Below, in pieces: positions 2,890 through 3,737 of a stretch of 64,000 nt of DNA. The notes under the pieces were generated by a model. The model did not search any database. It saw only the letters and a program-made list of their open reading frames with translations, and was not told where the DNA came from. This stretch comes from Dehalobacter sp. DCA (GTDB taxonomy: Bacteria; Bacillota; Desulfitobacteriia; Desulfitobacteriales; Syntrophobotulaceae). Both the position numbers and the translations under genes were made by a program. The DNA is taken from NCBI RefSeq assembly GCF_000305775.1, contig NC_018866.1, forward strand, positions 2,623,001 through 2,687,000, given 5' to 3'. Positions within the stretch are counted from its first letter, which is position 1. Each line of letters starts with the position of its first letter.

Positions 2890-2930
2890 AAACCAGCCAC
2901 GATTCTCTATTTGAATCGTGGCTGGTTTTA
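2890..2930. terminator. Strong hairpin terminator
   Basis: A perfect 16-bp stem, AAACCAGCCACGATTC (2890-2905) with its complement at 2913-2928 and a 7-base loop, ends in TTTTA. It sits after the small LSm-like gene and before the promoter of the next gene. Confidence 0.85.
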
Positions 2931-2945
2931 ACTGTATATTTTAAT

Positions 2946-3005
2946 TTGACACAATTGGTAAATATGTTACAATTGCATTAGCTAATTTTTTATATTAGCT
3001 AATGC
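2946..3005 (+). promoter_or_regulatory. Promoter with paired palindromic operators for the Phd-Uma2 gene
   Basis: TTGACA (2946-2951) and TACAAT (2968-2973) are 16 bases apart. Directly behind are two copies of the palindrome ATTAGCTAAT (2977-2986 and 2994-3003), 17 bp centre to centre, extended to a perfect inverted repeat GCATTAGCTAAT/ATTAGCTAATGC. GGAGGT at 3006-3011 and ATG at 3018 follow. The layout fits autorepression by the Phd-type domain encoded next, since Phd/YefM antitoxins bind paired palindromes over their own promoters. The binding itself is inference. Confidence 0.7.
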
Positions 3006-3017
3006 GGAGGTGCTCTA

Positions 3018-3737
3018 ATGGAAATTACCTCAACTGAAGCCCAGAATAATTTTGGCCGTTATCTGAAGCTAGCCTGGTTTGAAGACATTATTATCACGAA
3101 AAACGGCAAAAAAACAGTAGTTGTTAGACGCTATGAGGATCCCGGAAAAGATGTTTCAGTCGTTGCTGAAAGAGCTGAAAGCTATTCCTGGGACCAAGAA
3201 AAGATCACGTATGAAGACTTTTTAATGCTCTCTGAATCAAGTGAAAACCGCTACGAGTATATTGACGGAGAGGTCTACCTTTTGGCTTCGCCTACTTATG
3301 ACCACCAGTGCATCATCATGGAAATATCCAATGTCCTGTACAACTATTTCAAAGGCAAGAAATGCCGTCCGCTGACTTCTCCGTTCGACGTAACCCTTTC
3401 AGTCAGTGACAATAAAAATGTTGTCCAGCCTGATATGATTGTGATTTGCGATACTGAAAATATCAATGAAAAAGGCAGGTATACCGGCGTACCTGCCCTG
3501 GTTCTTGAAGTATTGTCCGATTCGACACAGAAAAAAGACCTGCTGAAAAAACTAAATTTATATCTGCAGGCCGGTATATCGGAATATTGGATTGTGAATC
3601 CCTGGCGCAAGGAAGTCTATTTATACTGCTTTGCCGAACAGGACATCAGGGAATACCGCGTTTATCAGAGCAGCGATACGATCAAGTCTCTATATTTTGA
3701 AGGCTTGTCTGTCCCTCTTGAACAGCTATTTTCTTAA
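3018..3737 (+). CDS. Phd/YefM-like antitoxin domain fused to Uma2-family endonuclease-like domain
   Basis: A 239-residue fusion. Residues 1-45 (MEITSTEAQNNFGRYL, then IIITKNGKKTVVVRRY) look like the DNA-binding half of a Phd/YefM antitoxin. Residues 60-235 look like Uma2 (DUF820), a PD-(D/E)xK nuclease-fold family: candidate active-site residues are D139 in QPDMIVI, E164 in LVLEVLS and a Lys around 172-178 in KKDLLKKLNLY. Uma2 proteins are abundant in cyanobacteria and found in Clostridia, without a firmly known job. Promoter and palindromic operators lie directly upstream; no separate toxin gene adjoins. The gene ends 6 bp before the convergent leuS. It may be a self-regulated nuclease or a domesticated toxin-antitoxin relic. 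Confidence 0.85.
   Translation: MEITSTEAQNNFGRYLKLAWFEDIIITKNGKKTVVVRRYEDPGKDVSVVAERAESYSWDQEKITYEDFLMLSESSENRYEYIDGEVYLLASPTYDHQCIIMEISNVLYNYFKGKKCRPLTSPFDVTLSVSDNKNVVQPDMIVICDTENINEKGRYTGVPALVLEVLSDSTQKKDLLKKLNLYLQAGISEYWIVNPWRKEVYLYCFAEQDIREYRVYQSSDTIKSLYFEGLSVPLEQLFS

Follow-up and report, generated by a model that had tools for sequence, protein, structure and literature searches.

A Phd-Uma2 fusion gene of Dehalobacter sp. DCA is likely a stand-alone, autorepressed gene for a predicted nuclease

Uma2 proteins (PF05685, COG4636, DUF820) have been regarded as predicted nucleases since 2005, with 95 genes in one cyanobacterium, and their active-site residues were defined as H / PD / EXX / K (PMC551604). 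The accessible parts of the Uma2 literature yielded no measured activity, role or regulator, and according to Makarova et al. 2009 Uma2 rarely has an antitoxin neighbour (PMC2701414). Solved Uma2 proteins (6okh, 9y1l, 3ot2 and 1wdj) consist of the Uma2 domain alone. Phd-family antitoxins, on the other side, use their N-terminal domain to bind paired palindromes over their own promoter (PMC4803016, PMC7730913), and R10 is cited as a DNA-binding residue of YefM (PMC4803016). The gene described here combines both: it has the fold of the solved Uma2 proteins and their PD-EXX-K-type site with H, to which it adds a Phd domain and conserved putative operators. The combination of Phd and Uma2 domains is probably already visible in family databases. 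A literature search, conducted mostly outside subscription journals, found no paper on Phd-Uma2 operators.

The gene lies in a window (the whole stretch of DNA that was analysed) of 64,000 nucleotides, in which the following features were identified.

2890..2928, no strand assigned: perfect inverted repeat of 16 nt with a 7-nt loop, then a short T run; terminator-like (repeat search and sequence)
2946..2973, + strand: predicted sigma-70-type promoter TTGACA-16-TACAAT, 11/12 consensus, TG ahead of the -10 box
2977..2986, no strand assigned: putative operator palindrome 1, exact ATTAGCTAAT, over the predicted transcription start; conserved upstream of relatives
2994..3003, no strand assigned: putative operator palindrome 2, exact ATTAGCTAAT, centre 17 bp from palindrome 1; conserved upstream of relatives
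3018..3737, + strand: Phd-Uma2 fusion gene, an ORF with ATG start, 239 aa
3018..3155, + strand: Phd/YefM DNA-binding domain lacking the toxin-neutralising C-terminal tail, residues 1-46 (profiles, model and fold comparison)
3156..3197, + strand: linker of low confidence, probably flexible, residues 47-60 (pLDDT <50 over residues 44-60)
3201..3734, + strand: Uma2 PD-(D/E)XK domain with H96, D139, E164 and K178, about residues 62-239 (profile, conservation and fold comparison)

The terminator-like repeat probably insulates the gene from upstream. Located at 2340-2783, an ORF of 147 aa with a G-, P- and Y-rich tail is also found beside the fusion in close relatives; it has no Pfam match.

The Uma2 half was matched by Pfam over the whole domain (residues 66-234, profile positions 2-171 of 172, E 3.5e-32). 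For the N-terminal half, PhdYeFM_antitox (PF02604) matched residues 3-41 slightly below its cut-off (27.6 bits vs 29.8, E 2.6e-6), and the NCBIfam profile phd_fam TIGR01552 matched above its own (23.6 bits vs 20.8). Residues 1-45 alone gave no real match in a sequence search against PDB sequences. An AlphaFold2 model, for which named relatives were supplied alongside the window protein, has a mean pLDDT of 79.7 and about 60-72 in residues 1-40, which is moderate confidence only; residues 1-37 were modelled as beta-alpha-alpha-beta-beta. In the fold comparison, the best match of residues 1-46 was the N-domain of VapB46 (6jqy, Z 6.5, rmsd 1.1 over 41 residues); P1 Phd (4zlx), YefM (2a6q) and a Nitrosomonas Phd also superpose, and the list of structures holds about eleven Phd/YefM-type entries. 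Residues 61-239 superpose on all four solved Uma2 structures (Z 19.7-24.1, the highest value being that of 6okh). The proposal of an earlier note that the DNA-binding part of Phd is fused to Uma2 is thus borne out by profiles, model and fold comparison alike, and the absence of a Phd fold from residues 1-50, which that note would have taken as a refutation, was not what we found.

H96, D139, E164 and K178 fit the Uma2 site, and the spacing from E164 to K178 equals that from E116 to K130 of Tt1808 (PMC551604). Two of these residues, D139 and E164, had been named correctly before; the predicted site also includes H96 and K178. In 137 fusions from Bacillota, D139, E164 and K178 are kept without exception, H96 in 136 and E80 in 136-137. 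Between close orthologues with measurable dS, dN/dS was 0.06-0.22 for the Uma2 domain and 0-0.13 for the Phd domain, values by which both domains are under purifying selection. The invariant site and the low dN/dS argue that both halves are maintained.

Because of the predicted promoter at 2946-2973, the two ATTAGCTAAT palindromes fall at or directly past the expected transcription start, which agrees with their earlier placement over it. Taken jointly they give an inverted repeat of 12 nt without a mismatch (2975-2986/2994-3005). The 3.07-Mb genome contains a single pair of ATTAGCTAAT sites within 25 bp of each other and no instance of the reversed control pattern. The pattern TTAGCTAA has fewer sites genome-wide than its reverse (21, L035-L049 and others, vs 55), and three of the 21 lie directly upstream of the genome's two Phd-Uma2 genes. 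The other eighteen could be further targets; one of them, at 2449216, is found some 0.5 kb ahead of the second fusion.

This second fusion, L003, is 52% identical to the window protein, and upstream of it ATTAGCTAAT and a second AGCTAAT are located on either side of the -35 box. The genome has three Uma2 genes in all. The third (L001:1267-2022; G000:C1:2612543-2613124), located outside the window, encodes Uma2 fused to an excisionase-like HTH_17 domain. It likewise places a small DNA-binding domain ahead of Uma2 in a single gene, but its DNA-binding fold is a different one, it is separate in Uma2 trees, where HTH-Uma2 fusions cluster with one another, and it has no TAGCTA upstream.

Protein searches covered 83 genomes of the class and 398 genomes of the phylum (Bacillota). 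At least one full-length Phd-Uma2 fusion was found in 24 of the former and 55 of the latter (genome counts are counts of result rows), among them Candidatus Dichloromethanomonas, Syntrophomonas and Paenibacillus. The rarity that the earlier note had implied therefore has to be given up: the fusion is widespread in Bacillota.

For the operator survey we used the upstream DNA of the 137 distinct Bacillota fusions, 87 of which have Q at residue 9 (Q9) and 50 K (K9). When the palindromic 6-mers in the 130 bp upstream were counted with no motif presupposed, TAGCTA was the commonest (89/137), and CGTACG came fourth after two words of A and T only. Among the Q9 fusions, TAGCTA is present within 130 bp upstream in 85 of 87 (shuffled mean 10.3) and at least twice in 78 (shuffled mean 0.5), although, the surveyed fusions being kin, these counts are not independent events; two Q9 genes do not have it. 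Position controls gave 3/87 both at -250 to -131 and over the initial 130 bp of the coding sequence. The word was found downstream of 0/52 fusions and upstream of 0/32 Uma2 genes without Phd (solo or HTH-fused). The K9 clade has YGTACR palindromes within 200 bp upstream in 37/50 cases (shuffled mean 6.8), and several K9 genes without YGTACR show TCGnnCGA variants by eye. The fusion and the palindromes thus co-occur in other genomes, as the earlier note had suggested surveying, with mostly CGTACG-type sites in the K9 clade.

All Phd-Uma2 genes of the family at 47-97% identity have TAGCTA pairs or triplets upstream; two family relatives near 40% identity have TCGTACGA and no TAGCTA pairs. The distances between TAGCTA sites fall into classes of 9, 17-18, 22-23 and 30 bp, which seem to track subgroups. 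Compared with yefM-yoeB, the core is AGCT instead of TGTACA (PMC4803016), and the spacing varies instead of being constant at 12 bp (PMC7730913). The palindromes are retained even between fusions less than 50% identical in protein, amid upstream DNA that otherwise differs. Due to the enrichment over shuffled sequences in Q9 genes and the negative results at other positions and at other Uma2 genes, we see strong evidence in the sequence comparison that the protein encoded just after the palindromes uses them as its operators.

Residue 9 seems to be the counterpart of YefM's DNA-binding R10, a match that we take from our own alignment. A code of one residue, in which Q9 reads AGCT and K9 reads GTAC, was ruled out: four K9 fusions (L089, L092, L093 and L053, only 4/50) carry TAGCTA upstream, so residue 9 alone does not set the operator type.

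The QNNFGKY motif recurs in Phd antitoxins encoded separately ahead of PIN toxin genes in L023 (PF02604 and PIN_3), L024 and L282, and these Q9 antitoxin genes also have TAGCTA upstream. Of the K9 Phd-PIN antitoxins, some have YGTACR and others have sites that, by eye, resemble TCGnnCGA. The general Phd antitoxins of the class are mostly R-type and too diverse for a clean operator comparison. Since the Phd-PIN antitoxins share both the Phd type and the operator, the fusion looks like the DNA-binding half of a Phd-PIN-type antitoxin whose neutralising tail was swapped for Uma2. With the Phd/YefM antitoxins (Phd-PIN / VapBC-type, e.g. L023) it has in common the N-terminal DNA-binding fold and the Q9 TAGCTA operator, and differs from them by having neither the toxin-neutralising tail nor an adjoining toxin. 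Uma2-domain trees cluster the fusions together, separate from HTH-Uma2 and solo Uma2. The fusion label requires two changes on the tree, the second of which was attributed to the relative L109, where residues 1-31 are missing. Most simply, Phd and Uma2 were fused once and the operator changed afterwards, though Phd halves may instead have been exchanged.

We consider it likely that Phd-Uma2 is a stand-alone, autorepressed gene for a predicted nuclease. The Phd/YefM domain very probably dimerises and binds both of the palindromes with TAGCTA core that overlie the gene's promoter; the protein would thereby repress its own transcription, and as a result of this self-repression it would stay scarce. 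Autorepression itself is very likely, given a Phd domain and a paired-palindrome arrangement as in Phd-family antitoxins, and the self-repressed single gene of the earlier note is in this respect strongly supported by phylogenetic footprinting. The Uma2 domain, with its PD-EXX-K site intact, probably cuts or nicks nucleic acid; judged by conserved site and modelled fold, nuclease activity is likely, a prediction held with somewhat less confidence than autorepression. Since the nuclease replaces the neutralising tail, no separate antitoxin is present.

It is possible, though we rather doubt it, that the fusions are a selfish or domesticated endonuclease family whose paralogues spread in genomes, with Phd mainly limiting expression and without a host role. 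Selfish expansion of Uma2 was suggested by Feder and Bujnicki 2005 (PMC551604), and several copies per genome and small arrays do occur. Within about 5 kb, L107:1117-5717 and L313 each hold two or three Phd-Uma2 genes that differ in operator class (TAGCTA and CGTACG types); the array of L313 adjoins an HTH-Uma2 gene. However, both domains are under purifying selection, as seen above, and the full fusion was absent from the phage records, plasmid records and viral contigs searched. The window copy, moreover, sits between comEC/comEA-like genes upstream and leuS downstream, which is convergent on the other strand. In other genera, at 77-78% identity, L101 shows this order too, and so does L105, judging from the sizes and order of its ORFs. 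This common arrangement suggests that the locus is old and vertically kept; being retained in place across genera, the window copy is not moving.

The same housekeeping surroundings speak against the suggestion that the gene is a compact toxin-antitoxin or defence unit in one protein. Here the Phd half, bound to the operator or packed on Uma2, would keep the nuclease inactive, and loss of binding through proteolysis or titration by phage DNA would release a toxic nuclease. Such a unit would fit autorepression through an antitoxin's DNA-binding domain, the rating of Uma2 as a likely solo toxin by Makarova et al. 2009 (PMC2701414), and a match to the PADLOC candidate PDC-S03 (E 7.7e-60). This model matches the Uma2 part, the Phd part being outside the matched stretch; PDC-S03 is an entry of the candidate list only, and our search found no paper that mentions it. 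Against the one-protein unit, the linker is of low confidence and no packing of Phd on Uma2 was predicted. As in Phd/YefM loci, paired palindromic putative operators lie over the gene's own promoter, but the separate adjacent toxin and antitoxin genes of a type II system are not found, and neither is a neutralising antitoxin tail, residue 46 being followed by the linker and then Uma2. Apart from a few Uma2 paralogues and ABC ATPases, the 87 fusion loci compared show no recurrent neighbour gene. In L311 (G004:C10:317300-319800), of the same genus, the equivalents of 2932-3496 and 3601-3737 are lost, including promoter and operators; about 100 bp of the gene remain between intact flanks. Another genome of the family has a broken copy, and the gene is thus dispensable. 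With only the DNA-binding half of Phd, no recurrent partner and plain loss in a close relative, "toxin-antitoxin" is unsupported, and the lack of a partner favours an autorepressed single-gene predicted nuclease; we regard the one-protein unit as unlikely. Neither the surroundings nor the missing partner suggests a defence island, although the gene may still have a defence role. A version in which operator binding by the Phd half represses the gene and at the same time keeps the nuclease parked, with a burst of active nuclease when a copy enters or a cell loses the repressor, is more improbable still. A transcription regulator that uses a non-catalytic PD-(D/E)XK domain for DNA binding or oligomerisation, and that represses its own gene along with perhaps a few other promoters, would suit the operator evidence, the eighteen further TTAGCTAA sites and the known PD-(D/E)XK folds without catalysis (PMC551604), but we think it quite improbable, as a non-catalytic role would not need the nearly invariant E80, H96, D139, E164 and K178.

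The autorepressed predicted nuclease may, as the likeliest options, restrict incoming DNA at a low level or be a selfish gene whose expression is kept in check. If the one-protein toxin-antitoxin reading were true, the two operator classes would insulate paralogues within one genome. The DNA-binding halves of antitoxins, together with their operators, would here be reused outside toxin-antitoxin pairs, and the Q9 fusions with AGCT cores and the K9 fusions with mostly GTAC-type cores form a natural series for the reading of DNA by Phd. Uma2 proteins are very abundant, and Phd-Uma2, a large clade with a readily testable built-in switch made of a defined promoter, a defined putative operator and a defined DNA-binding domain, offers a handle on this large family.
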